From Trichobilharzia regenti (Eukaryota > Platyhelminthes > Trematoda > Strigeidida > Schistosomatidae), in the NCBI GenBank assembly GCA_944472135.2, contig OX235267.1:23047452-23111451 (forward strand): a stretch of 64,000 bases of DNA, written 5' to 3'. The first letter of the stretch is position 1. Every line of letters starts with the position of its first letter. Shown here one piece after another: positions 3,001-35,593 of the stretch. A program made the position numbers and the translations under genes. The notes under the pieces are model-generated. The model made no database searches and was not told the DNA's origin. It was given only the letters and a program-made list of their open reading frames with translations.

Positions 3001-3159
3001 GCATTCTTAGTTTTTGGTAGTATGGTTTTGAAATTGATGCCATTCTAATAAATCAAGCGACTTTTACCAAATCGTTCAAAGATGTTACTGCAAAAGACGT
3101 TGCACGTAAACAGTTATCAACTAATACTTGGTTTACATGGTAATAAAGTCATTCAGAAG

Positions 3160-6606: not shown

Positions 6607-7742
6607 ACAACACCTGTGTAGCTGCCTCACCACACTGTTGAGGTAAATTTGACTTTGACGTTTTTATCGTTCAATAGAACCGCTAAAGTGTTTTTCAAGT
6701 CTTCTCAACTTTTCGCGAAAGCACGTGTATCAACGAAACTTTACTGGATATACAGGCAAACACAGAGATCGGTTTCTTACACCCATACCACAAGTGAACA
6801 AATTTTGTTGTTACATTATTTGCAGTTTGTCTTTTCAGCAGTTAGAGGGGTCTCAAAGAAGATGTACGTGCTCGCTGTGCTCAGATGGATGATCAATGAC
6901 TTTTATTCCTTCATCTAACCAATAAATCTTCTTGACAAAACATCCTCATTCAGACAATTCCAATATTTGTATTCAGTTTCATGCTAGTAAAGCTGAGTTA
7001 GTTTCCGCACACATTTCGTCAAGTGGTTTCAGTCGTTATAACTGTCACGTAAAAATAATTTTTAACTTAATTTCTTGATTTACTCGAATCATAGAAATCT
7101 TTACGTCATATGTATTTCTGGTGTTTTACTGACAAACTTTTGTTTCGTTTGGATTGACACAGTGTTTTGTTTGCCAAAGTTCATCTTCACACATGATGAT
7201 GTGGCAGAGAATTAGGCTTGAAGAGAGAAATCACTGATTAAGCTTCCCATAAGGGGCAAATCGTGAATAAACAAAACGACAGGAACGGCTGACTGACACT
7301 TTGTATAGTGTACTTTATGGTTGAGGCGTATATTCATCCCTAATAGAGATGATGAGTTCACAGATATTCGGAACGGTGTTTCTCAGCGTTGTAGTCCAAG
7401 ATGACTTTTGGTTACCTAAAATCAATTTAAAGTGCATCATGATTGCGTGTTGTTACTTACCTTAATGACCACACTACAAATCGGCTAATACAACTCAATC
7501 AGAATCAACGCTAATCACTTAGCATACGAGATTCGTTTCTCTTTGGCGAGTAATTAAATCTTTACAATGTAATATTCCTGAGAAGATGTCGGATATTATA
7601 AGTGGTGTATGTTGTTTATTTTGTGATACGCTTCACAGGATCGCTGGTTCATTCCCCCTCAGATACTTTCAGACAAGTTTTCGGATATCTTAAATGAACT
7701 ATAGTGATCAAGATATCCTGGGAAATTAGGGGTACTTTGGGT
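6607..7742. other. No supported gene
   Basis: AT-rich sequence with short, unsupported open frames. No tRNA-like boxes, LINE protein fragments or convincing exons were seen. Confidence 0.5.
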
Positions 7743-7755
7743 TATATCAATATAT

Positions 7756-8049
7756 ACAATTGGTGAATGGTGGCTAGCAGTGGAATCCAGGATGCGCATT
7801 TCGTCCTATTTGGGACTCGTCAGCTGGATGTACCTGCATTTCTCAGTGAGTGATGATGTTCCCACTGAGGCTCGAACCCAGTACCCATAGTTTCAAACGC
7901 CAAAGCGTTATCCACTAGACCACTTGGGCCACGAGAGCCACCTGTTGTGCAACGGGTCATATTAATTATTGAATTGAATCTTTGTTTTTCCCGTCGATTG
8001 ATTGGACCGGAGTGCTCGGTCTCAGGTTGACATGTCGGCTCCTTGTGCA
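7756..8049 (-). mobile_element. Sm-alpha: Sm-alpha-type hammerhead SINE, full length with a 13-bp target-site duplication
   Basis: Read on the minus strand, the element starts at 8,049. It has an A-box-like 'tggcccaagtggtctag' (+ strand 7,919-7,935), a B-box-like 'ggttcgagcct' and a hammerhead near its 3' end. The flanks carry 'tatatcaatatat' at 7,743-7,755 and at 8,050-8,062. The ribozyme region resembles the published schistosome satellite/SINE Sm-alpha hammerhead as I remember it, including the 'caaata' stem II loop and the 'ctggattccactgc' strand of stem I. This is a different subfamily from the 400-bp array, which shares the ribozyme core and tRNA-like head but not the tail. Confidence 0.88.
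7785..7829 (-). ncRNA. Hammerhead ribozyme, type I (Sm-alpha class)
   Basis: On the minus strand the core reads CTGACGA, then stem II GTCC/GGAC closed by loop CAAATA, then GAAA. A short stem III (ATG/CAT) follows, with the cleavage triplet ATC. Stem I pairs ATCCAG with CTGGAT. All invariant core bases are present, so self-cleavage is expected between 7,791 and 7,790 (minus-strand order). Confidence 0.85.
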
Positions 8050-8609
8050 TATATCAATATATGTCGATAACCGAAGGGAAAATAAACATTCGTCTGATTA
8101 TTATTTTATGCTATTGAAGCTATAATATTCACATCATTTGACTTTCATAATCAGTCAACTTTTATCAAACAATCAAGTTGCTCAGAAGTTATTTCTTCAG
8201 TCGCCATAATTAAGTGTGAAAATCTCATACAAACCAGACAGTCAATCCATATTATCAGCTATCCTGTTGACTTTTGAACTACTTGACGCTACATTTTCAT
8301 GAGCAGCACAAAGTGTAATGGAACAGATACTGGTAAATGTTTTGTATAGTCTGGTTGTGTTACAGCATTTGCTAGTTCAGTAATTTTTAATCTTGAGGGC
8401 TAATTGTTTTAGTTAACGAGAAATCTTTGGATTTCTAATTCACCAAGCCTTTTTATCTTTGTACTGAGAACTACAAAGGTAAACCATGGAGTTTAAACAT
8501 CACATAGATTAAACAATGTAGTCAGATGTGAAAATTGCATACAAAAATTTTTAACCTACGTCACTATCATTAGGATTGCTGTGAATTAATATTATCAGAC
8601 TTTTGATAA

Positions 8610-9805: not shown

Positions 9806-10937
9806 ACTGTGACCACTATAGGGCGAGGGAATGTATATTAGCTTTTGCAAGCATATGAGGACCATCCACATTTTGTATTGGTAGAAATATCTACCGACAA
9901 CTGATCCCCAAAGGACTTCGCTTTAATTTATGTAATTTTTCACCATATATTTTGGTGGTTATGCAAATCTGAACAACTTTGCTGAAGAAACTCTGGCTTA
10001 CATCACGCAAAATTCAGAAATATCTTGTTTCCGATTTCTCGACACCCTGGCATTATTTTGAATAATTCTGTGTCACGCATCTTATTGACTTCCGGATGAC
10101 TTTGCGTTTATATGAGCAGCTCGAAGTATACTAGTGCCAATGTTTGACATTTTTCTGCTTAACCCTTGAACAATTGAAAGACAGCCATTCGTTTGATGTA
10201 AACCACTAAGAGGTTGTTTCGATGACAACGTGAATTTGGAGTCGGTGTTTCAGACTCCAGGTGAAATAATGACATTTATGAACGATAACGACAAGAATCG
10301 AGTGGCTGACGCATTTATTCATTGCAAATATTTAGGCATGAAGAAAATAGTCATAACAATTATGATTTGCGCATCTACACAAAAAACAATTGTGTTCTTG
10401 AATAGTTCCCATCAAAATAAATAAATGCAGACTGAAGTGTATAATAGATAACAGACGATTATATGTCTTACAATCTGAAATTATACCCCTGTATCATACT
10501 GCATAAATTTCGATTGCCATTTCGAAATACTCAGCTAGTTTATACACAACTACTGGTTCTATCACTAAACAGATGTTTTGCTAATATAATCTAATGGGAA
10601 TATCCCAACATCAGAGAGCCACTTAATAGATAATTCAAACACGAGTTGTCCAATTCCTTACCATTCTACAGAGATCATTCTACGACACATGCTTTTCAAG
10701 TCAAGGACCAGCTCCACGGAAAGAGTAGCTTTCTAAAAGCCTTTCAGAATGGTAAAAACTTTAGATCACAAATATAGGTGTAATAAGCTTATTCTCAGAA
10801 TCTAATAGAAATATGCAGTAGCTGCGATCTATCGGATATTAAGTCGTTGAAACTAAACAAATACTACCTGTGAATAATGATTCCTGACTGAAATCGCGCT
10901 AACTCATCGCATTAGGAAAATCTGCAGCAGCGACTGC
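9806..10937. other. No supported gene; one unassigned dispersed block
   Basis: No exon was recognised. A block at ~10,650-10,790 ('accattctacagagat' and neighbours) resembles ~29,990-30,125 ('accattctacacagatt'). It is therefore probably a dispersed repeat, perhaps part of a PLE because a PLE fragment follows at 10,938. That assignment is inference. Confidence 0.4.
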
Positions 10938-11546
10938 TTGGAAGAGAAGCTCCTATTCCTCAAAAATATCCTGGCTCAAAATGGTTACTCAGCAACTTTT
11001 GTCTACAAGAGCATGAAACCTGAACCAAAAAGAGAAGAATACTATTCAGCGCCAAATAAAACGCTGTATATGAATGTGAATTTCAGGGGAGGCTTGGCAG
11101 CCGATAGCCCGAAGAGGAGAATATTCAGCTCTTTAAAGAAGACCTTCCCTGCAACAACACCAAATCTGACGTTTTCTAGCCTCCCAGTACTTCCAAATAA
11201 TACTAAGAGAAAATTCTCACATATGACAAATTCGATGTGCATATACCAGTTCAACTGCTCGTTCAGAGCTAGGTACGTGAGTCATTGTATGCATGTACTT
11301 TCGAAAGGTAGTAAAGAACACTACCCAGCATGGCTGCAAAGAGGAGACACCGGTTCAATCAGAAGTGCCATTATTGAACATCTGATCAACACCTCCCACA
11401 GCATCTCAACTGATTCACTCAAAGTCACTTACATAGTCGGCAGAAATCGACCAAAAGAAGTATGTTTCCGACCTTTTTGTACTTCAGAAGCCCTCACAAT
11501 ATGCATCGAAAAGCCAGAGCTATGTGTTCAGAAGAAATTAGTATAA
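10938..11546 (+). pseudogene. Penelope-like element, C-terminal part of the RT/GIY-YIG protein (degenerate)
   Basis: An open frame of about 200 codons matches the layout I know for Penelope-like proteins. It begins with the helical linker after the RT domain (EEKLLFLKNILAQNGY, then MKPEPKR). A PNKTLYMNVNF / AADSPKRRI stretch follows, then the zone where GIY-YIG should sit, with the EHYPAWL motif and the IRSAIIEHLINTSHSI block that follow it. The GIY-YIG signature itself is broken: residues ARYVSH stand where YIGRT is expected. The expected first cysteine pair is partly lost. The element is 5' truncated, with no RT catalytic region upstream. It lies 3 kb before the ribozyme array and is followed by AT-rich 3' sequence to ~11,950. 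Confidence 0.8.
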
Positions 11547-13564
11547 CCTCTACAACTACCATGGACCTAGTTCGATATGTTCCCTTAACCTCCGTATTTT
11601 TTCGTTTACTGTGTGTATGCTACTTCTCTCTTTGTCTTCACTCAATTCATCCTATATTTTCAGTCATAAGAACAATTATTTTAAGTTTGTTTCCAAGCTT
11701 TTCCGGCTCACATTTGTAATTCTTTTAAAATAACTATTTTACAGTTACATTCTAATCCTGTGTAATTTTTTGTTTCTAAACCTCTTGTAATCTACATTCA
11801 CACTTCCTAACTTCCATTTAAAGTTGAAAATTATTACTTCAATTTGTTTCCATGCTCATTCTTTACACACCTGTAATTCGTTTTAATCCTGTGTAATTTT
11901 GTTTCTAAGCCTCTCGTAAGCCATATCTAGTTGAAAATAATTTTCACCTTTTATTCGCCTTCGTAATTATGTGGAATCAAATAAGAAAATTGTATCTATT
12001 TAAAATTACGTAGTTAGATAGGATTGTACAGCTTTTGAAAATGAAGTCACCGTGAAGATATCTTTGCTGAACTTTGTGTTTTCTTCTTTCTTATGCCTCC
12101 ACTTACTTCTATCCTACAAATGTTAATCAGGCTTCAACTCAAAATATTCACTGCATAATTAATCTAGAGACTTCAAAATGCTTTCTCACATATCCGTTGG
12201 CCATTTGGTCACTCATACTTTGTAAATGGCGGTTACAAGGTGATTATCAAGATTATTCGCATAAATATTCCTGTTTCGATCTAATAACCCATTTAGTGAT
12301 AGAACACTGGATTGTTAAGAACTAGGTTTTGTCACCCAGTGGCCCCCTGGACAACATTTCGTTGTTGTCAGGGGTCCAATGAAAGGCCGTTTGTCATTCA
12401 CTGTGAAACATTTGGCTGAGGCACCTCAAAACATCGCCTAGTTTATTAGTCGATAGTAAATCTAGAAGAGAAAGAGAAGGGCTAACAGCCTCACCACATT
12501 AAAACAACACCTTCCCTAGTGAAATATCAGGGGTGAAAATTGAAGCCCTTTTTTCTACCTGGTACCCAAAGATGAGGAGCTGTGTACGGAATGAGAATGT
12601 TTTGGTTTTCTCAAAAGGTAAATATGGAATGTTTAGGTTTTCCACATCCTCACCACGAAAAATAAGCATATTTTATTGATACATCGTGTTCTTATTTCCC
12701 GTGGCTTCTCTCTTGATCTCCTATTTAGTGATCTCCTGTTTCAAAACCTACACGAGAATCACATCATCGTTACAATAAGTGTCTACGATCAAATCTGAGA
12801 ACCGTCAGTGCTGAAGAACCATCAACGCCCACATCGCCTGAATGCTCGAACTATGCTATTGTAATTTGTATCAATTACAATAAACCCCAGCCTTGAATAA
12901 CTGAGCACTTCAATAATTTTTCATTCACAACGATTTTAATGCATTCTTTCGATGTATTATATTGTCTCCATTCACTCTAACACTTAGTATTTCAAGTGTA
13001 TCTATAGTTCAGTCCATCACAACAGTGAAGTGAGGATAGATACCTTATGTGATAAATATCCACCGTGCGATTCGCTTACAGTATTTCCAGGGGAAAATTG
13101 AATTCATTGAGTGAGAACTCGATATGATTCTCTTATTTGACATAGATGTGGATTGAATATGAGTTTGTATTTCGGTTTATTTCGTGTGAAGTTTAAAATC
13201 AATACTTCAGCTCACTCAAGCAGATGAGAATGCAGGTCAAACGATTGGTGTCCATTTGTTCGAATTTCCCGTCCATTACAACTACATACGAGCATGTGAT
13301 GTGAATAGACTCGTTAATTCCTCAAAAAATATTAGGCCAAGTGAATCAGTAACAATTCCGTTGAACCAACACGGTGGAAAACTTCAAGTACCAAACCAGA
13401 TAGGGATAGTAAAATGAGTTAAAAAAGCACCATATCTTGTGAAATGTATTGCAAATAGAGTCAAAATACTAAACAGGAGACTCTCCGTGTAATTCTCCAT
13501 CTTTACTAAGAAAGGTTAACTCGTTTTCCTTCCACAGGAGCGACTAAATTTATAGATACACATG
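11547..13564. other. PLE 3' flank, then non-coding DNA
   Basis: To ~11,950 this is probably the untranslated 3' end of the PLE at 10.9 kb. The phrase 'ctgtgtaattttttgtttctaa' type occurs twice (near 11,758 and 11,891), a small internal repeat. From ~11,950 to 13,560 I see no exon, tRNA-like box or transposon protein. Confidence 0.4.
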
Positions 13565-13900
13565 GAAGTGGCACAGCTCGTGAAAGATAGGCTACCTAGC
13601 TGTGCCACTTCCTGTGGAGAAAGCTATATAGGGCGAACAACTAGACAGCTTAACAAATGCATTAATGAGCATCTTCCTTCATGGTTCGGAAAAGTTCAAA
13701 TAAAATCTATATGAAGTTCTATTTTGGCTCATTTGATCGATAGCGATCACCAAGTGAACAAAAATAGTGCCTCTAAAGTTATTATCTATCGCATTACATC
13801 GAGTCTTTCGAACGGAATCAGAACCCGTCTTTTACACATAGCTGAAGCTATGGGAATTAATTCGAGAGAACGATCCTAGTCTTTTATGAATAATACTTTG
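13565..13900 (+). pseudogene. Penelope-like element, GIY-YIG endonuclease fragment with a 14-bp snapback 5' end
   Basis: In one frame the sequence reads CATSCGESYIGRTTRQL, a good GIY-YIG signature with its Cys pair. INEHLPSW and, after a TGA at ~13,712, SSILAHLIDSDHQV and LLHIAEAMGI follow. These are the usual blocks of the nicking domain of Penelope-like retroelements. The in-frame stop and the missing RT show that it is dead. The fragment starts with a perfect 14-bp inverted repeat: gaagtggcacagct at 13,565-13,578 and its complement at 13,598-13,611, loop 19 nt. The fold-back is a copy of its own first coding bases. It ends about 360 bp before the ribozyme array. Confidence 0.82.
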
Positions 13901-14252
13901 AGAAAGCTATTAGCATCAAATAGCGAAACGTCAGTAAAAACAATCTCGTTTTGTTTTTCATTCATTGGGAAATACGAAAACCTCTATTATAATGAATCCT
14001 AGTCGTTGTATACAAAAGAAGTTTGTTCTACCTTTGTCTCTCCCTTGGCCTAGGTGAATTCTATTCAAAACCCTCCCACCATCTCTTATCCTCCACCTCC
14101 TTCGTACTTTTATGATATTTATTTAAACTCTGATTATCGTTCCATTTCACATTTTAAGATTTGACCTAATTTATTTATTTATTGAATTGTCTACATATAC
14201 ACATATATACATATACTATCTTTGTTATTCTTATCACCTGCATAAACCTTAT

Positions 14253-14264
14253 TATCAATATTTT
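14253..14264. repeat. Left target-site duplication of the ribozyme array
   Basis: The sequence tatcaatatttt is repeated exactly at 27,980-27,991, immediately outside the other end of the array. The last four T overlap the tttt that also starts each 400-bp unit on this strand, so at least 8 bases are independent of the unit. Confidence 0.7.
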
Positions 14265-17200
14265 CAAGTATTGGTTTTTGTAGGGATTTTGTTTGATTGC
14301 ATGGAGGATTTAATCATGAGCTGACATCAGTTAGAGAACCACTGGAAAACCTGGGAGTACTGGACAGCCGTTTCGTCCTAGTTTGGGACTCCTCAGCAGT
14401 ACGCACCCACCGGGATTCGAACCCAGGACCTTCTGGTTACAAGGCGAGCTCGTAGACCATTGAGCCACTGGGACCCGATCCAATGGTCCTCGAATTCTAA
14501 CTTCTGCCAGTTCACGACATAGCGCGACCACTTCGCAATGTCTTCTTCGATGAGTTACTGCCTCATATTCGACCTGCTGTACCCTACTGGTCACGGCTTC
14601 CCACTAGAACCCCAGGTTAACTGCCTGAATAGGGCCAGTCACTAGTGAGCATCAGATGAATTTTCAAGTATTGGTTTTTGTAGGGATTTTGTTTGATTGC
14701 ATGGAGGATTTAATCATGAGCTGACATCAGTTAGAGAACCACTGGAAAACCTGGGAGTACTGGACAGCCGTTTCGTCCTAGTTTGGGACTCCTCAGCAGT
14801 ACGCACCCACCGGGATTCGAACCCAGGACCTTCTGGTTACAAGGCGAGCTCGTAGACCATTGAGCCACTGGGACCCGATCCAATGGTCCTCGAATTCTAA
14901 CTTCTGCCAGTTCACGACATAGCGCGACCACTTCGCAATGTCTTCTTCGATGAGTTACTGCCTCATATTCGACCTGCTGTACCCTACTGGTCACGGCTTC
15001 CCACTAGAACCCCAGGTTAACTGCCTGAATAGGGCCAGTCACTAGTGAGCATCAGATGAATTTTCAAGTATTGGTTTTTGTAGGGATTTTGTTTGATTGC
15101 ATGGAGGATTTAATCATGAGCTGACATCAGTTAGAGAACCACTGGAAAACCTGGGAGTACTGGACAGCCGTTTCGTCCTAGTTTGGGACTCCTCAGCAGT
15201 ACGCACCCACCGGGATTCGAACCCAGGACCTTCTGGTTACAAGGCGAGCTCGTAGACCATTGAGCCACTGGGACCCGATCCAATGGTCCTCGAATTCTAA
15301 CTTCTGCCAGTTCACGACATAGCGCGACCACTTCGCAATGTCTTCTTCGATGAGTTACTGCCTCATATTCGACCTGCTGTACCCTACTGGTCACGGCTTC
15401 CCACTAGAACCCCAGGTTAACTGCCTGAATAGGGCCAGTCACTAGTGAGCATCAGATGAATTTTCAAGTATTGGTTTTTGTAGGGATTTTGTTTGATTGC
15501 ATGGAGGATTTAATCATGAGCTGACATCAGTTAGAGAACCACTGGAAAACCTGGGAGTACTGGACAGCCGTTTCGTCCTAGTTTGGGACTCCTCAGCAGT
15601 ACGCACCCACCGGGATTCGAACCCAGGACCTTCTGGTTACAAGGCGAGCTCGTAGACCATTGAGCCACTGGGACCCGATCCAATGGTCCTCGAATTCTAA
15701 CTTCTGCCAGTTCACGACATAGCGCGACCACTTCGCAATGTCTTCTTCGATGAGTTACTGCCTCATATTCGACCTGCTGTACCCTACTGGTCACGGCTTC
15801 CCACTAGAACCCCAGGTTAACTGCCTGAATAGGGCCAGTCACTAGTGAGCATCAGATGAATTTTCAAGTATTGGTTTTTGTAGGGATTTTGTTTGATTGC
15901 ATGGAGGATTTAATCATGAGCTGACATCAGTTAGAGAACCACTGGAAAACCTGGGAGTACTGGACAGCCGTTTCGTCCTAGTTTGGGACTCCTCAGCAGT
16001 ACGCACCCACCGGGATTCGAACCCAGGACCTTCTGGTTACAAGGCGAGCTCGTAGACCATTGAGCCACTGGGACCCGATCCAATGGTCCTCGAATTCTAA
16101 CTTCTGCCAGTTCACGACATAGCGCGACCACTTCGCAATGTCTTCTTCGATGAGTTACTGCCTCATATTCGACCTGCTGTACCCTACTGGTCACGGCTTC
16201 CCACTAGAACCCCAGGTTAACTGCCTGAATAGGGCCAGTCACTAGTGAGCATCAGATGAATTTTCAAGTATTGGTTTTTGTAGGGATTTTGTTTGATTGC
16301 ATGGAGGATTTAATCATGAGCTGACATCAGTTAGAGAACCACTGGAAAACCTGGGAGTACTGGACAGCCGTTTCGTCCTAGTTTGGGACTCCTCAGCAGT
16401 ACGCACCCACCGGGATTCGAACCCAGGACCTTCTGGTTACAAGGCGAGCTCGTAGACCATTGAGCCACTGGGACCCGATCCAATGGTCCTCGAATTCTAA
16501 CTTCTGCCAGTTCACGACATAGCGCGACCACTTCGCAATGTCTTCTTCGATGAGTTACTGCCTCATATTCGACCTGCTGTACCCTACTGGTCACGGCTTC
16601 CCACTAGAACCCCAGGTTAACTGCCTGAATAGGGCCAGTCACTAGTGAGCATCAGATGAATTTTCAAGTATTGGTTTTTGTAGGGATTTTGTTTGATTGC
16701 ATGGAGGATTTAATCATGAGCTGACATCAGTTAGAGAACCACTGGAAAACCTGGGAGTACTGGACAGCCGTTTCGTCCTAGTTTGGGACTCCTCAGCAGT
16801 ACGCACCCACCGGGATTCGAACCCAGGACCTTCTGGTTACAAGGCGAGCTCGTAGACCATTGAGCCACTGGGACCCGATCCAATGGTCCTCGAATTCTAA
16901 CTTCTGCCAGTTCACGACATAGCGCGACCACTTCGCAATGTCTTCTTCGATGAGTTACTGCCTCATATTCGACCTGCTGTACCCTACTGGTCACGGCTTC
17001 CCACTAGAACCCCAGGTTAACTGCCTGAATAGGGCCAGTCACTAGTGAGCATCAGATGAATTTTCAAGTATTGGTTTTTGTAGGGATTTTGTTTGATTGC
17101 ATGGAGGATTTAATCATGAGCTGACATCAGTTAGAGAACCACTGGAAAACCTGGGAGTACTGGACAGCCGTTTCGTCCTAGTTTGGGACTCCTCAGCAGT

Positions 17201-20200
17201 ACGCACCCACCGGGATTCGAACCCAGGACCTTCTGGTTACAAGGCGAGCTCGTAGACCATTGAGCCACTGGGACCCGATCCAATGGTCCTCGAATTCTAA
17301 CTTCTGCCAGTTCACGACATAGCGCGACCACTTCGCAATGTCTTCTTCGATGAGTTACTGCCTCATATTCGACCTGCTGTACCCTACTGGTCACGGCTTC
17401 CCACTAGAACCCCAGGTTAACTGCCTGAATAGGGCCAGTCACTAGTGAGCATCAGATGAATTTTCAAGTATTGGTTTTTGTAGGGATTTTGTTTGATTGC
17501 ATGGAGGATTTAATCATGAGCTGACATCAGTTAGAGAACCACTGGAAAACCTGGGAGTACTGGACAGCCGTTTCGTCCTAGTTTGGGACTCCTCAGCAGT
17601 ACGCACCCACCGGGATTCGAACCCAGGACCTTCTGGTTACAAGGCGAGCTCGTAGACCATTGAGCCACTGGGACCCGATCCAATGGTCCTCGAATTCTAA
17701 CTTCTGCCAGTTCACGACATAGCGCGACCACTTCGCAATGTCTTCTTCGATGAGTTACTGCCTCATATTCGACCTGCTGTACCCTACTGGTCACGGCTTC
17801 CCACTAGAACCCCAGGTTAACTGCCTGAATAGGGCCAGTCACTAGTGAGCATCAGATGAATTTTCAAGTATTGGTTTTTGTAGGGATTTTGTTTGATTGC
17901 ATGGAGGATTTAATCATGAGCTGACATCAGTTAGAGAACCACTGGAAAACCTGGGAGTACTGGACAGCCGTTTCGTCCTAGTTTGGGACTCCTCAGCAGT
18001 ACGCACCCACCGGGATTCGAACCCAGGACCTTCTGGTTACAAGGCGAGCTCGTAGACCATTGAGCCACTGGGACCCGATCCAATGGTCCTCGAATTCTAA
18101 CTTCTGCCAGTTCACGACATAGCGCGACCACTTCGCAATGTCTTCTTCGATGAGTTACTGCCTCATATTCGACCTGCTGTACCCTACTGGTCACGGCTTC
18201 CCACTAGAACCCCAGGTTAACTGCCTGAATAGGGCCAGTCACTAGTGAGCATCAGATGAATTTTCAAGTATTGGTTTTTGTAGGGATTTTGTTTGATTGC
18301 ATGGAGGATTTAATCATGAGCTGACATCAGTTAGAGAACCACTGGAAAACCTGGGAGTACTGGACAGCCGTTTCGTCCTAGTTTGGGACTCCTCAGCAGT
18401 ACGCACCCACCGGGATTCGAACCCAGGACCTTCTGGTTACAAGGCGAGCTCGTAGACCATTGAGCCACTGGGACCCGATCCAATGGTCCTCGAATTCTAA
18501 CTTCTGCCAGTTCACGACATAGCGCGACCACTTCGCAATGTCTTCTTCGATGAGTTACTGCCTCATATTCGACCTGCTGTACCCTACTGGTCACGGCTTC
18601 CCACTAGAACCCCAGGTTAACTGCCTGAATAGGGCCAGTCACTAGTGAGCATCAGATGAATTTTCAAGTATTGGTTTTTGTAGGGATTTTGTTTGATTGC
18701 ATGGAGGATTTAATCATGAGCTGACATCAGTTAGAGAACCACTGGAAAACCTGGGAGTACTGGACAGCCGTTTCGTCCTAGTTTGGGACTCCTCAGCAGT
18801 ACGCACCCACCGGGATTCGAACCCAGGACCTTCTGGTTACAAGGCGAGCTCGTAGACCATTGAGCCACTGGGACCCGATCCAATGGTCCTCGAATTCTAA
18901 CTTCTGCCAGTTCACGACATAGCGCGACCACTTCGCAATGTCTTCTTCGATGAGTTACTGCCTCATATTCGACCTGCTGTACCCTACTGGTCACGGCTTC
19001 CCACTAGAACCCCAGGTTAACTGCCTGAATAGGGCCAGTCACTAGTGAGCATCAGATGAATTTTCAAGTATTGGTTTTTGTAGGGATTTTGTTTGATTGC
19101 ATGGAGGATTTAATCATGAGCTGACATCAGTTAGAGAACCACTGGAAAACCTGGGAGTACTGGACAGCCGTTTCGTCCTAGTTTGGGACTCCTCAGCAGT
19201 ACGCACCCACCGGGATTCGAACCCAGGACCTTCTGGTTACAAGGCGAGCTCGTAGACCATTGAGCCACTGGGACCCGATCCAATGGTCCTCGAATTCTAA
19301 CTTCTGCCAGTTCACGACATAGCGCGACCACTTCGCAATGTCTTCTTCGATGAGTTACTGCCTCATATTCGACCTGCTGTACCCTACTGGTCACGGCTTC
19401 CCACTAGAACCCCAGGTTAACTGCCTGAATAGGGCCAGTCACTAGTGAGCATCAGATGAATTTTCAAGTATTGGTTTTTGTAGGGATTTTGTTTGATTGC
19501 ATGGAGGATTTAATCATGAGCTGACATCAGTTAGAGAACCACTGGAAAACCTGGGAGTACTGGACAGCCGTTTCGTCCTAGTTTGGGACTCCTCAGCAGT
19601 ACGCACCCACCGGGATTCGAACCCAGGACCTTCTGGTTACAAGGCGAGCTCGTAGACCATTGAGCCACTGGGACCCGATCCAATGGTCCTCGAATTCTAA
19701 CTTCTGCCAGTTCACGACATAGCGCGACCACTTCGCAATGTCTTCTTCGATGAGTTACTGCCTCATATTCGACCTGCTGTACCCTACTGGTCACGGCTTC
19801 CCACTAGAACCCCAGGTTAACTGCCTGAATAGGGCCAGTCACTAGTGAGCATCAGATGAATTTTCAAGTATTGGTTTTTGTAGGGATTTTGTTTGATTGC
19901 ATGGAGGATTTAATCATGAGCTGACATCAGTTAGAGAACCACTGGAAAACCTGGGAGTACTGGACAGCCGTTTCGTCCTAGTTTGGGACTCCTCAGCAGT
20001 ACGCACCCACCGGGATTCGAACCCAGGACCTTCTGGTTACAAGGCGAGCTCGTAGACCATTGAGCCACTGGGACCCGATCCAATGGTCCTCGAATTCTAA
20101 CTTCTGCCAGTTCACGACATAGCGCGACCACTTCGCAATGTCTTCTTCGATGAGTTACTGCCTCATATTCGACCTGCTGTACCCTACTGGTCACGGCTTC

Positions 20201-23200
20201 CCACTAGAACCCCAGGTTAACTGCCTGAATAGGGCCAGTCACTAGTGAGCATCAGATGAATTTTCAAGTATTGGTTTTTGTAGGGATTTTGTTTGATTGC
20301 ATGGAGGATTTAATCATGAGCTGACATCAGTTAGAGAACCACTGGAAAACCTGGGAGTACTGGACAGCCGTTTCGTCCTAGTTTGGGACTCCTCAGCAGT
20401 ACGCACCCACCGGGATTCGAACCCAGGACCTTCTGGTTACAAGGCGAGCTCGTAGACCATTGAGCCACTGGGACCCGATCCAATGGTCCTCGAATTCTAA
20501 CTTCTGCCAGTTCACGACATAGCGCGACCACTTCGCAATGTCTTCTTCGATGAGTTACTGCCTCATATTCGACCTGCTGTACCCTACTGGTCACGGCTTC
20601 CCACTAGAACCCCAGGTTAACTGCCTGAATAGGGCCAGTCACTAGTGAGCATCAGATGAATTTTCAAGTATTGGTTTTTGTAGGGATTTTGTTTGATTGC
20701 ATGGAGGATTTAATCATGAGCTGACATCAGTTAGAGAACCACTGGAAAACCTGGGAGTACTGGACAGCCGTTTCGTCCTAGTTTGGGACTCCTCAGCAGT
20801 ACGCACCCACCGGGATTCGAACCCAGGACCTTCTGGTTACAAGGCGAGCTCGTAGACCATTGAGCCACTGGGACCCGATCCAATGGTCCTCGAATTCTAA
20901 CTTCTGCCAGTTCACGACATAGCGCGACCACTTCGCAATGTCTTCTTCGATGAGTTACTGCCTCATATTCGACCTGCTGTACCCTACTGGTCACGGCTTC
21001 CCACTAGAACCCCAGGTTAACTGCCTGAATAGGGCCAGTCACTAGTGAGCATCAGATGAATTTTCAAGTATTGGTTTTTGTAGGGATTTTGTTTGATTGC
21101 ATGGAGGATTTAATCATGAGCTGACATCAGTTAGAGAACCACTGGAAAACCTGGGAGTACTGGACAGCCGTTTCGTCCTAGTTTGGGACTCCTCAGCAGT
21201 ACGCACCCACCGGGATTCGAACCCAGGACCTTCTGGTTACAAGGCGAGCTCGTAGACCATTGAGCCACTGGGACCCGATCCAATGGTCCTCGAATTCTAA
21301 CTTCTGCCAGTTCACGACATAGCGCGACCACTTCGCAATGTCTTCTTCGATGAGTTACTGCCTCATATTCGACCTGCTGTACCCTACTGGTCACGGCTTC
21401 CCACTAGAACCCCAGGTTAACTGCCTGAATAGGGCCAGTCACTAGTGAGCATCAGATGAATTTTCAAGTATTGGTTTTTGTAGGGATTTTGTTTGATTGC
21501 ATGGAGGATTTAATCATGAGCTGACATCAGTTAGAGAACCACTGGAAAACCTGGGAGTACTGGACAGCCGTTTCGTCCTAGTTTGGGACTCCTCAGCAGT
21601 ACGCACCCACCGGGATTCGAACCCAGGACCTTCTGGTTACAAGGCGAGCTCGTAGACCATTGAGCCACTGGGACCCGATCCAATGGTCCTCGAATTCTAA
21701 CTTCTGCCAGTTCACGACATAGCGCGACCACTTCGCAATGTCTTCTTCGATGAGTTACTGCCTCATATTCGACCTGCTGTACCCTACTGGTCACGGCTTC
21801 CCACTAGAACCCCAGGTTAACTGCCTGAATAGGGCCAGTCACTAGTGAGCATCAGATGAATTTTCAAGTATTGGTTTTTGTAGGGATTTTGTTTGATTGC
21901 ATGGAGGATTTAATCATGAGCTGACATCAGTTAGAGAACCACTGGAAAACCTGGGAGTACTGGACAGCCGTTTCGTCCTAGTTTGGGACTCCTCAGCAGT
22001 ACGCACCCACCGGGATTCGAACCCAGGACCTTCTGGTTACAAGGCGAGCTCGTAGACCATTGAGCCACTGGGACCCGATCCAATGGTCCTCGAATTCTAA
22101 CTTCTGCCAGTTCACGACATAGCGCGACCACTTCGCAATGTCTTCTTCGATGAGTTACTGCCTCATATTCGACCTGCTGTACCCTACTGGTCACGGCTTC
22201 CCACTAGAACCCCAGGTTAACTGCCTGAATAGGGCCAGTCACTAGTGAGCATCAGATGAATTTTCAAGTATTGGTTTTTGTAGGGATTTTGTTTGATTGC
22301 ATGGAGGATTTAATCATGAGCTGACATCAGTTAGAGAACCACTGGAAAACCTGGGAGTACTGGACAGCCGTTTCGTCCTAGTTTGGGACTCCTCAGCAGT
22401 ACGCACCCACCGGGATTCGAACCCAGGACCTTCTGGTTACAAGGCGAGCTCGTAGACCATTGAGCCACTGGGACCCGATCCAATGGTCCTCGAATTCTAA
22501 CTTCTGCCAGTTCACGACATAGCGCGACCACTTCGCAATGTCTTCTTCGATGAGTTACTGCCTCATATTCGACCTGCTGTACCCTACTGGTCACGGCTTC
22601 CCACTAGAACCCCAGGTTAACTGCCTGAATAGGGCCAGTCACTAGTGAGCATCAGATGAATTTTCAAGTATTGGTTTTTGTAGGGATTTTGTTTGATTGC
22701 ATGGAGGATTTAATCATGAGCTGACATCAGTTAGAGAACCACTGGAAAACCTGGGAGTACTGGACAGCCGTTTCGTCCTAGTTTGGGACTCCTCAGCAGT
22801 ACGCACCCACCGGGATTCGAACCCAGGACCTTCTGGTTACAAGGCGAGCTCGTAGACCATTGAGCCACTGGGACCCGATCCAATGGTCCTCGAATTCTAA
22901 CTTCTGCCAGTTCACGACATAGCGCGACCACTTCGCAATGTCTTCTTCGATGAGTTACTGCCTCATATTCGACCTGCTGTACCCTACTGGTCACGGCTTC
23001 CCACTAGAACCCCAGGTTAACTGCCTGAATAGGGCCAGTCACTAGTGAGCATCAGATGAATTTTCAAGTATTGGTTTTTGTAGGGATTTTGTTTGATTGC
23101 ATGGAGGATTTAATCATGAGCTGACATCAGTTAGAGAACCACTGGAAAACCTGGGAGTACTGGACAGCCGTTTCGTCCTAGTTTGGGACTCCTCAGCAGT

Positions 23201-23532
23201 ACGCACCCACCGGGATTCGAACCCAGGACCTTCTGGTTACAAGGCGAGCTCGTAGACCATTGAGCCACTGGGACCCGATCCAATGGTCCTCGAATTCTAA
23301 CTTCTGCCAGTTCACGACATAGCGCGACCACTTCGCAATGTCTTCTTCGATGAGTTACTGCCTCATATTCGACCTGCTGTACCCTACTGGTCACGGCTTC
23401 CCACTAGGACCCCAGGTTAACTGCCTGAATAGGGCCAGTCACTAGTGAGCATCAGATGAATTTTCAAGTATTGGTTTTTGTAGGGATTTTGTTTGATTGC
23501 ATGGAGGATTTAATCATGAGCTGACATCAGTT
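14261..23532 (-). repeat. Left arm of the ribozyme palindrome: 23 tandem 400-bp units plus 72 bp, minus strand
   Basis: The block 'ttttcaagtattggtttttg' recurs exactly every 400 bp from 14,261 to 23,461, with no length change. Units are identical in everything I compared, apart from a G for A at 23,408 in the last full unit. Each unit on the minus strand holds, in order: a ~190-bp unique part, an A box (TGGCTCAATGG), a B box (GGTTCGAATCC), a hammerhead ribozyme, and a ~95-bp 3' tail ending CCAATACTTG. The 23rd unit is followed by a 72-bp partial unit that stops at the palindrome centre. The 87-codon open frame in every unit begins with GTG and runs through the tRNA-like part. I read it as non-coding. 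Confidence 0.95.
14357..23202 (-). ncRNA. 23 hammerhead ribozymes, one per unit (first at 14,357-14,402, then every 400 bp)
   Basis: On the minus strand each copy has stem I GTACTG/CAGTAC, core CTGAGGA, stem II GTCC/GGAC with loop CAAACTA, then GAAA, a minimal stem III (ACG/TGT with a GC loop) and the cleavage triplet GTC. All core bases of the hammerhead consensus are present in each copy. Open ends at stem I make it type I, the topology of schistosome SINE ribozymes. In the first unit, cleavage is predicted between 14,363 and 14,362 in minus-strand order. Read-through transcripts of the array would be cut to 400-nt monomers with 5'-OH and 2',3'-cyclic phosphate ends. Confidence 0.92.
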
Positions 23533-23617
23533 CCAGTGGTTCTCTAACTGATGTCAGCTCATGATTAAATCCTCCATGCAATGAAACAAAATCCCTACAA
23601 AAACCAATACTTGAAAA
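23461..23617. repeat. Palindrome centre of the ribozyme array (head-to-head junction)
   Basis: The left arm ends with gacatcagtt at 23,532. A 13-nt spacer (ccagtggttctct, 23,533-23,545) follows, and the right arm starts with aactgatgtc at 23,546. The spacer is simply the next 13 bases of the sense unit, so the two arms are broken at slightly different places in the same part of the tail. The 72-bp inner arms pair perfectly except at 23,583, where G replaces C. Both arms point their 3' tails inward at the junction and outward at the ends. Confidence 0.93.
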
Positions 23618-23810
23618 TTCATCTGATGCTCACTAGTGACTGGCCCTATTCAGGCAGTTAACCTGGGGTTCTAGTGGGAAGCCGTGACCAGTAGGGTACA
23701 GCAGGTCGAATATGAGGCAGTAACTCATCGAAGAAGACATTGCGAAGTGGTCGCGCTATGTCGTGAACTGGCAGAAGTTAGAATTCGAGGACCATTGGAT
23801 CGGGTCCCAG

Positions 23811-23865
23811 TGGCTCAATGGTCTACGAGCTCGCCTTGTAACCAGAAGGTCCTGGGTTCGAATCC
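23811..23865 (+). promoter_or_regulatory. Internal RNA polymerase III promoter (A and B boxes), representative of all 34 units
   Basis: TGGCTCAATGG at 23,811-23,821 fits the A-box consensus and GGTTCGAATCC at 23,855-23,865 is a perfect B box, 33 nt apart, as in tRNA genes. A D-stem-like GCTC/GAGC pairing is visible, but the anticodon stem does not form well, so this is tRNA-derived and not a functional tRNA. The same pair recurs in every unit on both arms. No run of four T lies between the B box and the ribozyme. The first TTTT on the sense strand (23,929-23,932) is 13 nt beyond the cleavage site and could act as a weak Pol III stop. Confidence 0.8.
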
Positions 23866-23875
23866 CGGTGGGTGC

Positions 23876-26800
23876 GTACTGCTGAGGAGTCCCAAACTAG
23901 GACGAAACGGCTGTCCAGTACTCCCAGGTTTTCCAGTGGTTCTCTAACTGATGTCAGCTCATGATTAAATCCTCCATGCAATCAAACAAAATCCCTACAA
24001 AAACCAATACTTGAAAATTCATCTGATGCTCACTAGTGACTGGCCCTATTCAGGCAGTTAACCTGGGGTTCTAGTGGGAAGCCGTGACCAGTAGGGTACA
24101 GCAGGTCGAATATGAGGCAGTAACTCATCGAAGAAGACATTGCGAAGTGGTCGCGCTATGTCGTGAACTGGCAGAAGTTAGAATTCGAGGACCATTGGAT
24201 CGGGTCCCAGTGGCTCAATGGTCTACGAGCTCGCCTTGTAACCAGAAGGTCCTGGGTTCGAATCCCGGTGGGTGCGTACTGCTGAGGAGTCCCAAACTAG
24301 GACGAAACGGCTGTCCAGTACTCCCAGGTTTTCCAGTGGTTCTCTAACTGATGTCAGCTCATGATTAAATCCTCCATGCAATCAAACAAAATCCCTACAA
24401 AAACCAATACTTGAAAATTCATCTGATGCTCACTAGTGACTGGCCCTATTCAGGCAGTTAACCTGGGGTTCTAGTGGGAAGCCGTGACCAGTAGGGTACA
24501 GCAGGTCGAATATGAGGCAGTAACTCATCGAAGAAGACATTGCGAAGTGGTCGCGCTATGTCGTGAACTGGCAGAAGTTAGAATTCGAGGACCATTGGAT
24601 CGGGTCCCAGTGGCTCAATGGTCTACGAGCTCGCCTTGTAACCAGAAGGTCCTGGGTTCGAATCCCGGTGGGTGCGTACTGCTGAGGAGTCCCAAACTAG
24701 GACGAAACGGCTGTCCAGTACTCCCAGGTTTTCCAGTGGTTCTCTAACTGATGTCAGCTCATGATTAAATCCTCCATGCAATCAAACAAAATCCCTACAA
24801 AAACCAATACTTGAAAATTCATCTGATGCTCACTAGTGACTGGCCCTATTCAGGCAGTTAACCTGGGGTTCTAGTGGGAAGCCGTGACCAGTAGGGTACA
24901 GCAGGTCGAATATGAGGCAGTAACTCATCGAAGAAGACATTGCGAAGTGGTCGCGCTATGTCGTGAACTGGCAGAAGTTAGAATTCGAGGACCATTGGAT
25001 CGGGTCCCAGTGGCTCAATGGTCTACGAGCTCGCCTTGTAACCAGAAGGTCCTGGGTTCGAATCCCGGTGGGTGCGTACTGCTGAGGAGTCCCAAACTAG
25101 GACGAAACGGCTGTCCAGTACTCCCAGGTTTTCCAGTGGTTCTCTAACTGATGTCAGCTCATGATTAAATCCTCCATGCAATCAAACAAAATCCCTACAA
25201 AAACCAATACTTGAAAATTCATCTGATGCTCACTAGTGACTGGCCCTATTCAGGCAGTTAACCTGGGGTTCTAGTGGGAAGCCGTGACCAGTAGGGTACA
25301 GCAGGTCGAATATGAGGCAGTAACTCATCGAAGAAGACATTGCGAAGTGGTCGCGCTATGTCGTGAACTGGCAGAAGTTAGAATTCGAGGACCATTGGAT
25401 CGGGTCCCAGTGGCTCAATGGTCTACGAGCTCGCCTTGTAACCAGAAGGTCCTGGGTTCGAATCCCGGTGGGTGCGTACTGCTGAGGAGTCCCAAACTAG
25501 GACGAAACGGCTGTCCAGTACTCCCAGGTTTTCCAGTGGTTCTCTAACTGATGTCAGCTCATGATTAAATCCTCCATGCAATCAAACAAAATCCCTACAA
25601 AAACCAATACTTGAAAATTCATCTGATGCTCACTAGTGACTGGCCCTATTCAGGCAGTTAACCTGGGGTTCTAGTGGGAAGCCGTGACCAGTAGGGTACA
25701 GCAGGTCGAATATGAGGCAGTAACTCATCGAAGAAGACATTGCGAAGTGGTCGCGCTATGTCGTGAACTGGCAGAAGTTAGAATTCGAGGACCATTGGAT
25801 CGGGTCCCAGTGGCTCAATGGTCTACGAGCTCGCCTTGTAACCAGAAGGTCCTGGGTTCGAATCCCGGTGGGTGCGTACTGCTGAGGAGTCCCAAACTAG
25901 GACGAAACGGCTGTCCAGTACTCCCAGGTTTTCCAGTGGTTCTCTAACTGATGTCAGCTCATGATTAAATCCTCCATGCAATCAAACAAAATCCCTACAA
26001 AAACCAATACTTGAAAATTCATCTGATGCTCACTAGTGACTGGCCCTATTCAGGCAGTTAACCTGGGGTTCTAGTGGGAAGCCGTGACCAGTAGGGTACA
26101 GCAGGTCGAATATGAGGCAGTAACTCATCGAAGAAGACATTGCGAAGTGGTCGCGCTATGTCGTGAACTGGCAGAAGTTAGAATTCGAGGACCATTGGAT
26201 CGGGTCCCAGTGGCTCAATGGTCTACGAGCTCGCCTTGTAACCAGAAGGTCCTGGGTTCGAATCCCGGTGGGTGCGTACTGCTGAGGAGTCCCAAACTAG
26301 GACGAAACGGCTGTCCAGTACTCCCAGGTTTTCCAGTGGTTCTCTAACTGATGTCAGCTCATGATTAAATCCTCCATGCAATCAAACAAAATCCCTACAA
26401 AAACCAATACTTGAAAATTCATCTGATGCTCACTAGTGACTGGCCCTATTCAGGCAGTTAACCTGGGGTTCTAGTGGGAAGCCGTGACCAGTAGGGTACA
26501 GCAGGTCGAATATGAGGCAGTAACTCATCGAAGAAGACATTGCGAAGTGGTCGCGCTATGTCGTGAACTGGCAGAAGTTAGAATTCGAGGACCATTGGAT
26601 CGGGTCCCAGTGGCTCAATGGTCTACGAGCTCGCCTTGTAACCAGAAGGTCCTGGGTTCGAATCCCGGTGGGTGCGTACTGCTGAGGAGTCCCAAACTAG
26701 GACGAAACGGCTGTCCAGTACTCCCAGGTTTTCCAGTGGTTCTCTAACTGATGTCAGCTCATGATTAAATCCTCCATGCAATCAAACAAAATCCCTACAA

Positions 26801-27921
26801 AAACCAATACTTGAAAATTCATCTGATGCTCACTAGTGACTGGCCCTATTCAGGCAGTTAACCTGGGGTTCTAGTGGGAAGCCGTGACCAGTAGGGTACA
26901 GCAGGTCGAATATGAGGCAGTAACTCATCGAAGAAGACATTGCGAAGTGGTCGCGCTATGTCGTGAACTGGCAGAAGTTAGAATTCGAGGACCATTGGAT
27001 CGGGTCCCAGTGGCTCAATGGCCTACGAGCTCGCCTTGTAACCAGAAGGTCCTGGGTTCGAATCCCGGTGGGTGCGTACTGCTGAGGAGTCCCAAACTAG
27101 GACGAAACGGCTGTCCAGTACTCCCAGGTTTTCCAGTGGTTCTCTAACTGATGTCAGCTCATGATTAAATCCTCCATGCAATCAAACAAAATCCCTACAA
27201 AAACCAATACTTGAAAATTCATCTGATGCTCACTAGTGACTGGCCCTATTCAGGCAGTTAACCTGGGGTTCTAGTGGGAAGCCGTGACCAGTAGGGTACA
27301 GCAGGTCGAATATGAGGCAGTAACTCATCGAAGAAGACATTGCGAAGTGGTCGCGCTATGTCGTGAACTGGCAGAAGTTAGAATTCGAGGACCATTGGAT
27401 CGGGTCCCAGTGGCTCAATGGTCTACGAGCTCGCCTTGTAACCAGAAGGTCCTGGGTTCGAATCCCGGTGGGTGCGTACTGCTGAGGAGTCCCAAACTAG
27501 GACGAAACGGCTGTCCAGTACTCCCAGGTTTTCCAGTGGTTCTCTAACTGATGTCAGCTCATGATTAAATCCTCCATGCAATCAAACAAAATCCCTACAA
27601 AAACCAATACTTGAAAATTCATCTGATGCTCACTAGTGACTGGCCCTATTCAGGCAGTTAACCTGGGGTTCTAGTGGGAAGCCGTGACCAGTAGGGTACA
27701 GCAGGTCGAATATGAGGCAGTAACTCATCGAAGAAGACATTGCGAAGTGGTCGCGCTATGTCGTGAACTGGCAGAAGTTAGAATTCGAGGACCATTGGAT
27801 CGGGTCCCAGTGGCTCAATGGTCTACGAGCTCGCCTTGTAACCAGAAGGTCCTGGGTTCGAATCCCGGTGGGTGCGTACTGCTGAGGAGTCCCAAACTAG
27901 GACGAAACGGCTGTCCAGTAC
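23876..27921 (+). ncRNA. 11 hammerhead ribozymes, one per unit (first at 23,876-23,921, then every 400 bp)
   Basis: First copy by position: stem I 23,876-23,881 with 23,916-23,921; core CTGAGGA 23,882-23,888; stem II 23,889-23,892 with 23,900-23,903; GAAA 23,904-23,907; cleavage predicted after C23,915. A second short pairing (GTGGG with CCCA(C/T)-type bases at 23,069-type positions upstream, here 23,869-23,872 with 23,923-23,926) can extend stem I beyond an internal loop. Such loops help natural hammerheads cleave at cellular magnesium. Confidence 0.92.
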
Positions 27922-27979
27922 TCCCAGGTTTTCCAGTGGTTCTCTAACTGATGTCAGCTCATGATTAAATCCTCCATGC

Positions 27980-27991
27980 TATCAATATTTT
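27980..27991. repeat. Right target-site duplication of the ribozyme array
   Basis: The sequence tatcaatatttt follows directly after the last truncated unit and matches 14,253-14,264 exactly. Flanking DNA beyond both copies differs, so this is the edge of the inserted block. Confidence 0.7.
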
Positions 27992-28214
27992 GTTATCATT
28001 ATAATCATCGTTATTAATTTCGTTCAAAACATTTACCACATTATTATTATTATTATTATTATTATTTGGTCCACAAAATCACCGTCATTGGTTAAAATAT
28101 TATTGTTCAAGCGAAATAACTTCAAAGAACATTTCAGAAAAAATTTTTATTTTATCACTCAATGAATAAAGATATACCGATAGCTTGCAGTATTGATAAG
28201 ATGGTATTTCCGTT

Positions 28215-28358
28215 TTCACCCACCGTACCGCTGAAGAGTCCCAAACTAGGACGAAACAGCTGTCCAGTACTCTCATGTTTTCCAATGGTTCTCTAACTAA
28301 TGTCAGCTCATGACGAAATCACGAAACCAATCAAATCCCTACAAACCAACACTTGAAT
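28215..28358 (+). mobile_element. Solo, 5'-truncated copy of the 400-bp ribozyme element
   Basis: The copy starts just before the ribozyme ('cacccaccgtaccg') and runs through the tail to 'aacacttgaa'. It has a shorter tail version than the array ('gacgaaatcacgaaaccaatcaaatccc'), so it belongs to an older or sister subfamily, although it lies only 220 bp beyond the array. It lacks the A and B boxes. Confidence 0.85.
28225..28270 (+). ncRNA. Hammerhead ribozyme, core intact, one stem I mismatch
   Basis: Core CTGAAGA, stem II GTCC/GGAC with loop CAAACTA, GAAA and cleavage triplet GTC are all present. Stem I pairs GTACCG with CAGTAC and has one A-C mismatch next to the core-proximal pair, so cleavage may be weaker than in the array. 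Confidence 0.75.
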
Positions 28359-34499: not shown

Positions 34500-35593
34500 G
34501 TACGTAGAGTATTCGTTTGAAAAGTTCTACCGAAATTCGATGAATCTATTATATGCTGCTTACTTAACATCTGTTGCTTGTATATTCATCTCGTCAACTG
34601 CATTTACGTCAAATTCAATGATCTATCGTAAGCTTTTCTCACTTTGATATTTATTAATAGCGAATATATATCAAGAATCGCAAATTGAGTATTAACAATA
34701 ATGTTGAAATAATTTAAGATAATGCTACTGATAACAGATAGTTTTAAATGAATCAAGAATAATAATGAGAGGTAGAATAAAGTGTTAATAATAATAAAAG
34801 TTAACAAGTAAAACGCATAACGTGGTGGATTTAAAGTTGCAACCCTCTTCTTTTGTACACAGTGACATGATTTATAAACTCCAATTGCACAAGCCTCCGT
34901 AATCGCAAGCATCTTCCTGTTTGTTTGTTTGTTTGTTTGTTTGTTTGTCTGTTTATCTGTTGACAACAGTGAATAACCTGACAGAATCGATTTCATGTAC
35001 GCAGTCGACGAGATTCTTTATTATTGAGCTTTTTAGCACTGTGAATTCAGCTGTTTTGAATCAATTCGGCAAATTCTACATCATGCCCATACACAATCAC
35101 CTTACTATGCAACCTTTGTACTTTCTTCCACAAACACCCTCAAACTGATTTACGCAGTTTGAAGTACTCAAGATTGGCGACTGGTCTTCCTCAGATTGTT
35201 TATGCACTCCCCTAGTGATGTTGTGGAAGAAAACTTTCGCTGCATACTAAATTTTCCTGATAGCTTTATCGAGTCTCCGTTTGGCTAGCTCTTGGAAATC
35301 ATCTATCTTGGATGGAAAATTGATATAGACAGATTTATAGGATTTCATCATGAGCTGACATTGGTTAGAGAGCCATTGGAAAACCTGGTTCTCTAAATAA
35401 TGTCAGGTCGTGATGAAATCATGTAAACCAATCAAATCCTTACAAACCAACACTTGAATAGACAGATTTATTCGGAACTGTTTGAACATTTCCGCAGGGG
35501 ATCATTTTTTTAAAGTACTTATTACAGAAAATCAAAAGAAGGGATTCAGCAAAGAGAATCCTTTCAACGAATTTATCATCAAGCTGTACATTC

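Follow-up and report, generated by a model that had tools for sequence, protein, structure and literature searches.

A 13.7-kb palindromic array of hammerhead-ribozyme repeats in the genome of the blood fluke Trichobilharzia regenti is, judged by its borders, a single insertion and not a plain satellite. The array occupies positions 14253-27991 of a 64,000-nucleotide stretch of contig OX235267.1, referred to throughout as the window. It was probably made by Penelope-type machinery from a non-autonomous hammerhead retroelement, that is, a retrozyme of the metazoan type with a tRNA-like head. What is new here is a retrozyme whose commonest insertion form, among the copies sampled, is a two-armed palindrome with ends like those of Penelope-like elements (PLEs); the case in the window is extreme in size.

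One insertion in an old repeat

The array is enclosed by two copies of the 12-bp sequence TATCAATATTTT, one at 14253-14264 and the other at 27980-27991, which together form a target-site duplication; the edges that an earlier note had given for the array prove to be its outer bases. The last five bases of the left copy, ATTTT, fit the array as well, and may represent a microhomology used in priming. Outside the duplication lies an old PLE-like copy on the plus strand, the target of the insertion. Its 3' region is divided into a left part (13995-14252) and a right part (27992-28097), and a 52-amino-acid relic of the same element lies upstream (13556-13711, plus strand); this peptide is GIY-YIG-like by eye and matches, at 93%, pieces found in 810-amino-acid frames elsewhere in the genome. 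From 13995 onwards the left flank corresponds to the 3' region of an abundant repeat family, for which the best 40 of 4,068 candidates in the same genome were scored. When the two flanks are joined, all six paralogues fetched (L049-L054, 88-96% identity) are continuous across the junction, with no large break and with one TATCAATATTTT-like site, although L049 follows only 18 nt beyond the insertion site. The 12-bp duplication and the uninterrupted paralogues together indicate that the whole inverted block arrived in the old copy at once, or else expanded after a single insertion without disturbing its borders. The insertion also appears to be recent, as suggested by the perfect duplication and by the presence of three differences in 13.7 kb, a number which polishing of the assembly may have lowered by evening the units.

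The array had been described in the earlier note as 23 minus-strand and 11 plus-strand units of 400 bp facing each other around a 13-nt spacer, and three kinds of count agree with this. Tandem Repeats Finder (TRF) reports 23.2 copies with a period of 400 at 14260-23532 and 11.1 copies with the same period at 23531-27985; the Rfam model Hammerhead_1 matches 23 minus and 11 plus units, each with 52.5 bits (gathering score 34); and within 14253-27991 there are 23 minus-strand and 11 plus-strand occurrences each of the A box, the B box and a 34-nt string of the hammerhead core. A complete hammerhead core and boxes for RNA polymerase III (Pol III), which are tRNA-like, are accordingly present in 34 of 34 units, as had been proposed. 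Copy numbers are those of the assembly and could be off in their exact values.

Numbered from the first base of the hammerhead, each unit comprises the hammerhead itself (1-46, cleavage at 40/41), a body of about 290 nt, an A box at 336 and a B box at 380. For the first plus unit this places a type I hammerhead ribozyme at 23876-23921, with cleavage predicted after GUC at 23915/23916 in agreement with the earlier note, the A-box-like TGGCTCAATGG of a tRNA-like Pol III promoter at 23811-23821 and the B box GGTTCGAATCC at 23855-23865, all on the plus strand and each with 34 copies in the array. Unit positions 107-143 would form a tail between two reverse-transcription start sites; it is marked here in one unit (23982-24018, plus strand) and consists of 20 A, 9 C, 7 T and 1 G, such that 29 of its 37 bases are A or C. 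No open frame of 150 amino acids or more is listed in 14253-27991, and no frame combining reverse transcriptase with GIY-YIG lies inside the array.

The minus arm (14260-23532, 9,273 nt) carries the 23 minus units, and its outer end, at unit position 143, is the tail-bearing one. The plus arm (23533-27979, 4,447 nt) carries the other 11 and has its outer end at unit position 104, before the tail; its BLAST match continues through the duplication to unit position 110. At the centre (23531-23545), a TT microhomology would join two complementary DNA (cDNA) ends and is followed by the 13-nt spacer of the palindrome, CCAGTGGTTCTCT (23533-23545), which lies within an exact stem of 37 bp. Of 4,440 positions compared between the two arms, 4 differ. 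One of these, the outermost (19098/27980), falls inside the right duplication, and the only differences within the two arms are three single-copy base changes (unit positions 195, 108 and 347).

Paired ends and a common template across the family

The earlier note had taken the array for a singular palindromic satellite, a view which comparison with its relatives does not support. The best 38 of 1,027 candidate family copies, and hence young ones, were sampled with their flanks, and 26 of these loci (one a duplicate) are two-armed, with the minus arm on the left and the plus arm on the right. Head-to-head insertion is hence the commonest form among the best-matching copies. Across 37 of the loci, 10 PLE-like loci and the window, adjacent arms form 34 minus-plus pairs, one plus-minus pair and one minus-minus pair; the sole plus-minus pair, L044, is a young element nested within an older copy. 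Nine minus-plus pairs have an arm of less than 93% identity (73-92%), which indicates that the head-to-head habit is old. L026, a duplicate of L025, was counted in the border matches and left out of the polarity, end-class, template-variant and per-unit variant counts. L032, which shares its right flank with L031, was kept in the border, polarity and end counts and left out of within-locus variant scoring.

The borders of these elements resemble those of the window. In 18 of 39 elements the longest string shared by the left and right borders measures 12 nt; 28 of the 39 (including L011, which lies in a TA microsatellite, L038, which is offset, and the duplicate L026) share at least 11 nt, compared with 7 of 1,560 controls in which the left border was moved outward. 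The 24 typed duplications, from which L011, L034 and L038 (TA repeat or offset) and L026 were set aside, are 82% A+T, and ATT or AAT is found in 21 of them. The window itself also holds two old members of the family in head-to-head form, at 3159-3432 and 35339-35458, with 77-90% identity to the young unit. About 235 bp to the right of the array, at 28225-28270 on the plus strand, lies a copy of this ribozyme family that is old and has diverged (49.8 bits).

The outer end of each arm is the presumed start of its cDNA. Positions of these ends were taken from BLAST matches, and two classes were drawn after the ends had been seen: of 64 outer ends, 31 lie at unit 140-147, where 1.3 are expected, and 21 at unit 102-111, where 1.6 are expected. 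Among 26 two-arm elements, counting that of the window, the first class is represented in 24 and the second in 18; 16 have one end of each class, and none has the same class twice. The two putative start sites lie about 30-40 nt apart with the tail at one end, as published for PLEs.

Sequence variants bear on the origin of the two arms. In 24 two-arm elements, 17 rare variants (each the majority base in one or two of the 24) are present in every scored copy of both arms, across 12 elements; no variant is fixed in one arm (at least two copies) and absent from the other, and at another 82 positions the variation is confined to one or a few copies. All 23 minus and all 11 plus units of the window carry 236T and 312G. 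The comparison leaves out L027 (arms 594 nt apart), L037 and the one-arm loci, as well as five bases at each arm end; for six of the 17 shared variants each arm contributes a single copy (L021, L033 with three of them, L040 and L046), and that at position 14 of L042 is absent from one unscored end copy. Independent RNAs drawn from a mixed pool should give arm-specific variants, and since none is seen, both arms are, by their variants, derived from one template sequence.

The lengths of the arms narrow down the form of this template. From the farther start site to the cleavage point is 103 nt; 47 of 48 arms are longer than this, and 32 exceed one lap. Because these arms pass the cleavage point, a cleaved linear monomer cannot be the template for the 47, and identical laps would be most simply explained by a circle. 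Where the two arms join, they overlap by a mean of 2.62 nt (0.68 expected), with at least 2 nt in 17 of 24 joins against an expected fraction of 0.159; overlaps were read from BLAST coordinates with gaps set to zero, and may include a mismatch.

Probable Penelope-type machinery and its alternatives

The following sequence of events would produce such an element. Transcripts of the unit would be cleaved by the hammerhead and circularised to 400-nt RNAs, or would persist as multimers. An endonuclease-reverse transcriptase would then cut both target strands 12 bp apart, and each free 3' end would prime on the same plus-sense RNA, at unit position ~143 or ~107, one per end. Both enzymes would go round the RNA repeatedly, in this case for about 23 and 11 laps, before a short microhomology joined the two cDNA ends, leaving a minus arm on the left and a plus arm on the right inside the 12-bp duplication. 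The RNA circle, the identity of the enzyme and the order of the steps are what we infer from features legible in the DNA: a single insertion with its duplication and empty site, clustered and paired ends, constant polarity, one template sequence and a similar architecture in a resident PLE-like element.

A broader proposal, which is favoured only slightly, is that two-primer rolling-circle retrotransposition propagates animal retrozymes, with PLE enzymes on both cut strands following the same circle for many laps and writing up to 34 units per jump, and that resident PLE-like elements spread likewise. If true, tandem and inverted PLE arrays (2,850-bp period) and ribozyme satellites would arise in the act of insertion itself and not through amplification afterwards. 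The paired-end structure seen here is a motif that points to PLEs as the carrier of animal retrozymes, and the array offers a direct origin, in one insertion, for ribozyme satellites and palindromic tandem arrays.

Metazoan retrozymes are described as tandem repeats moved via circles by an unknown non-LTR (long terminal repeat) element, with PLEs a strong candidate; a circular RNA intermediate and tandem cDNA have been proposed (Cervera & de la Pena 2020, PMC7229834). A review from the same year states that retrozyme repeats show no motif from which the mobilising element could be deduced, and also names PLEs as likely candidates (PMC7761336). The array shares with metazoan retrozymes a type I hammerhead, a non-coding unit, tandem organisation (dimers to large multimers) and a duplication that, where present, is longer than the 4 bp of plant retrozymes and is 12 bp here (PMC7229834). 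Its unit is a short non-coding tandem repeat within the range of about 150-450 bp, as in metazoan retrozymes; at 400 nt it stands at the top of the published RNA range (~170-400 nt), and the GC content is 49.5%, compared with published values of below 45% (figure) or below 50% (text; PMC7229834). That paper, in the text consulted, makes no mention of two-armed head-to-head insertions, of two fixed start sites or of 12-bp duplications, and its main text contains the word 'inverted' 0 times. A further difference is the tRNA-like Pol III head, whereas retrozymes are said not to seem to harbour promoters (PMC7761336).

In vitro, purified PLE protein from Anolis cleaves AT-rich DNA at ATT on both strands and extends them, and starts reverse transcription at two adjacent internal sites which bound the 30-40-nt tail of genomic copies, with a hammerhead just upstream of the start sites (Frangieh 2024, PMC11167929). 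In Adineta, Penelope copies have inverted pseudo-LTRs (pLTRs), mostly head-to-head, with an optional tail on one and duplications of 8-10 bp in the cases quoted (Arkhipova 2013, PMC3846280). The retrozyme thus shares with PLEs the two internal starts with an optional tail, the use of both target strands, AT-rich sites of the ATT type and head-to-head copies. It differs from them in being 400 nt long, in encoding no protein and in running for up to 23 laps, whereas PLEs are autonomous. In the open-access literature, which leaves subscription papers uncovered, no paper was found that joins retrozymes with head-to-head insertion, twin priming with hammerheads, or Trichobilharzia with hammerheads.

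A PLE-like element with a similar architecture is resident in the genome. Using the 52-amino-acid piece of the flank relic as query, the best 150 of 22,821 candidates were scored, and at least 21 lie in open frames of exactly 810 amino acids. At C4:101748351-101762602 (-- +++), C8:88215201-88226018 (-- ++) and C385:1615-6261 (- ++) the element forms tandem arrays in head-to-head arrangement that repeat about every 2,850 bp, and several of their units lie in 810-amino-acid frames. The C4 array has a 13-bp duplication, AACGTCTAATATC, and a tail at its left end only; in the C8 array the left end is short and the right end is without a clear border. L055 and L057 are head-to-head palindromes with arms of 460 and 1,246 nt. 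Among 48 rows with neighbours, picked by eye from the best 150, adjacent pairs within 10 kb comprise 15 minus-plus, 4 minus-minus, 4 plus-plus and 1 plus-minus. Of 21 3' ends, 10 lie at reference position 100-107, 4 at 129-135 (about 28 nt further) and 6 elsewhere (two being short matches); the last is the reference itself.

The partial copy L057, together with motifs seen by eye, points weakly to a PLE nature for this resident element. Pfam recognises no family in the 52-amino-acid GIY-YIG-like piece of the window or in the frame at 10881-11546, and no GIY-YIG relative was found among solved structures. The corresponding piece of L058 gives a weak Pfam match to GIY-YIG (E 0.011), and a protein search with it returned 19 relatives, nearly all of them unnamed fluke proteins and one named as GIY-YIG domain-containing (S. 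rodhaini). No hammerhead of the PLE-like element itself was detected by Rfam, at a lax threshold, in the seven loci fetched, and a hammerhead-like stretch seen by eye before CGCTTATATG does not fold as one. A further candidate, C4b (L053/L062), was rejected as a single element, being two separate copies which face each other. L058 was chosen as a PLE pair of opposite orientation, and between its two PLE-like halves, at 560-2160, lies another inverted element with a hammerhead-like string, minus on the left (~1379) and plus on the right (~1800). The motif TTGAA occurs at the far start site of both the retrozyme (ACTTGAAAAT) and the PLE-like element (GATTTGAAAT, L079), and just past that site in the Anolis template (ACATTGAACA); with three sequences compared after the fact, this is a lead only.

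Several observations weigh against insertion by Penelope-type machinery from two primers on a circle. One end class is missing in 10 of the 26 two-arm elements, and in 8 the second end lies elsewhere; 12 of the 38 loci have one arm only. The border match is just 5-9 nt in 11 of 39 elements, comprising eight with one arm (L014, L015, L018, L019, L023, L028, L031 and L045) and three with two (L024, L035 and L037). A clear duplication is present in one of five head-to-head PLE-like copies (C4), and none was found by script in the C8 array, L057, L055 or the C8 pair; in the last, TTAATGATT is visible by eye. The PLE and retrozyme tails have no clear sequence in common. In L057, a 282-amino-acid frame contains RVT_1 (E 0.0087) followed by GIY-YIG (E 0.024), the order found in PLEs, with both matches below the Pfam cut-offs. 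Single-copy arms can differ, as in L011, where the minus arm has three differences from its plus arm, a pattern indistinguishable from later mutation. Finally, partial variants occur in several units of long arrays (L035 position 17, L037 position 40 and L039 position 384) among the nine elements covered by the per-unit scan.

These partial variants fit a homogeneous uncut multimer or later exchange between units, and so touch on the alternative which survives best: that the template was not a circle but a linear multimeric transcript of an older array. This is a tentative alternative, and a variant more than an exclusive one, since two primers and PLE-type insertion would be unchanged. It would suit the clustering of partial variants in neighbouring units (four adjacent copies at L035 position 17), and the Anolis PLE protein used unprocessed RNA in vitro, where hammerhead mutants had no effect on insertion (PMC11167929). 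Arms of 9.3 and 6.6 kb would, however, demand RNA left uncut by its 16-23 active hammerheads, all 34 units of the window carry the same two rare variants, and animal retrozymes occur as circles beside linear forms (PMC7229834). In the plus arm of L037 (C1:21398000-21407500; 12.8 units), position 40, the base 5' of the cleavage, is T in 4 of 13 copies, which are not adjacent; an RNA ligation-junction effect or later exchange between units is possible. A ligation-site scar at unit position 40 was considered as a signature and rejected, as this position varies in L037 alone among the scored loci.

In L1 twin priming, two primers are used at one break and the 5' part is inverted and joined by microhomology; one end is fixed and one free, the second priming has no set position, and only a minority of insertions are inverted. 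Twin priming by an ordinary long interspersed nuclear element (LINE) of this genome, in place of a PLE, would yield the observed polarity and microhomology joins, as in L1 5' inversions, and the window contains frames for a LINE-like reverse transcriptase (42651-45450 and 50756-52939). It is nevertheless improbable: both ends are clustered, with opposite classes in 16 of 26 elements, in place of one fixed and one free end; the two-armed form makes up 26 of 38 loci; and the resident PLE-like element resembles the retrozyme in its arrays, its end classes and, in one case, its duplication. As the retrozyme ends match the published PLE signature better than they match one fixed and one free end, PLE machinery is favoured over L1 twin priming.

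A satellite grown in place by unequal exchange and made palindromic by replication fork switching could account for the perfect period, the near-perfect homogeneity and the small spacer with its 2-nt microhomology. It is very unlikely, since a clean target-site duplication encloses the entire block and its empty site is known from paralogues, and many dispersed loci share its polarity, kinds of ends and border matches. Still less credible is an artefact of library or assembly, such as a fold-back chimera or collapsed or polished repeats. Thirty-four near-identical units in a palindrome are a classic assembly hazard, and polishing can make units more alike, but a random chimera would lack the 12-bp duplication, the family-typical ends and the empty site, and the form recurs in 34 adjacent pairs, nine with an arm of 73-92% identity. 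Least credible of all is snap-back self-priming, in which one cDNA folds back and is copied into the second arm: self-priming has been proposed for the head-to-head Penelope copies of Adineta (PMC3846280) and a 37-bp exact palindrome lies at the centre here, but the second arm should then end at the unit position of the first, which none of the 26 elements with their lack of same-class ends bears out, and the arm lengths in the window differ.

The 400-bp unit and other features of the window

The head of the unit is tRNA-like at most, as the tRNA covariance model gives it 19.6 bits, below the gathering score of 29. Each plus unit contains one TTTT run, at unit positions 54-57, an estimated 130 nt or so downstream of the likely Pol III start. 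A full-length RNA would consequently need read-through or another polymerase, and production of 400-nt monomers by Pol III is uncertain. The isolated hammerhead folds no better than shuffled sequences (z -0.85), and the 400-nt circle somewhat better (z -2.1, 100 shuffles). CpG accounts for 23 of 116 within-locus variant copies, at 30 of the 400 sites, in 36 loci and the window; this excess could reflect cytosine methylation.

Ribozyme-bearing short interspersed nuclear elements (SINEs) of schistosomes, Sm-alpha and Sj-alpha, were reportedly described by Ferbeyre in 1998 and Laha in 2000. The likeness to schistosome ribozyme SINEs and satellites drawn in the earlier note stands as a likeness in kind. 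In S. mansoni, the W-elements include active hammerheads and the Sm-alpha SINE (Stitz 2021, PMC8490949). Like the array, these are SINE-like hammerhead repeats of a blood fluke; theirs are active in vitro and lie in tandem on the W chromosome and autosomes (PMC8490949). The unit is 400 bp here and 335 bp in W36.2/Sm-alpha, and the word 'head-to-head' occurs 0 times in that paper (PMC8490949).

A second hammerhead family is represented in the window at 7785-7829 on the minus strand (69.1 bits), with a tRNA-like head beside it, as seen by eye. It is present in a single orientation, and a search of 7200-8600 found no inverted partner of at least 14 nt. The reverse transcriptase frame at 50756-52939 matches a T. 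regenti protein at 96% and a T. szidati protein at 89%. Two tRNA-Gln (TTG) genes, at 54035-54106 and 55926-55997, both on the minus strand, lie 1.89 kb apart and are perhaps the product of a recent tandem duplication.

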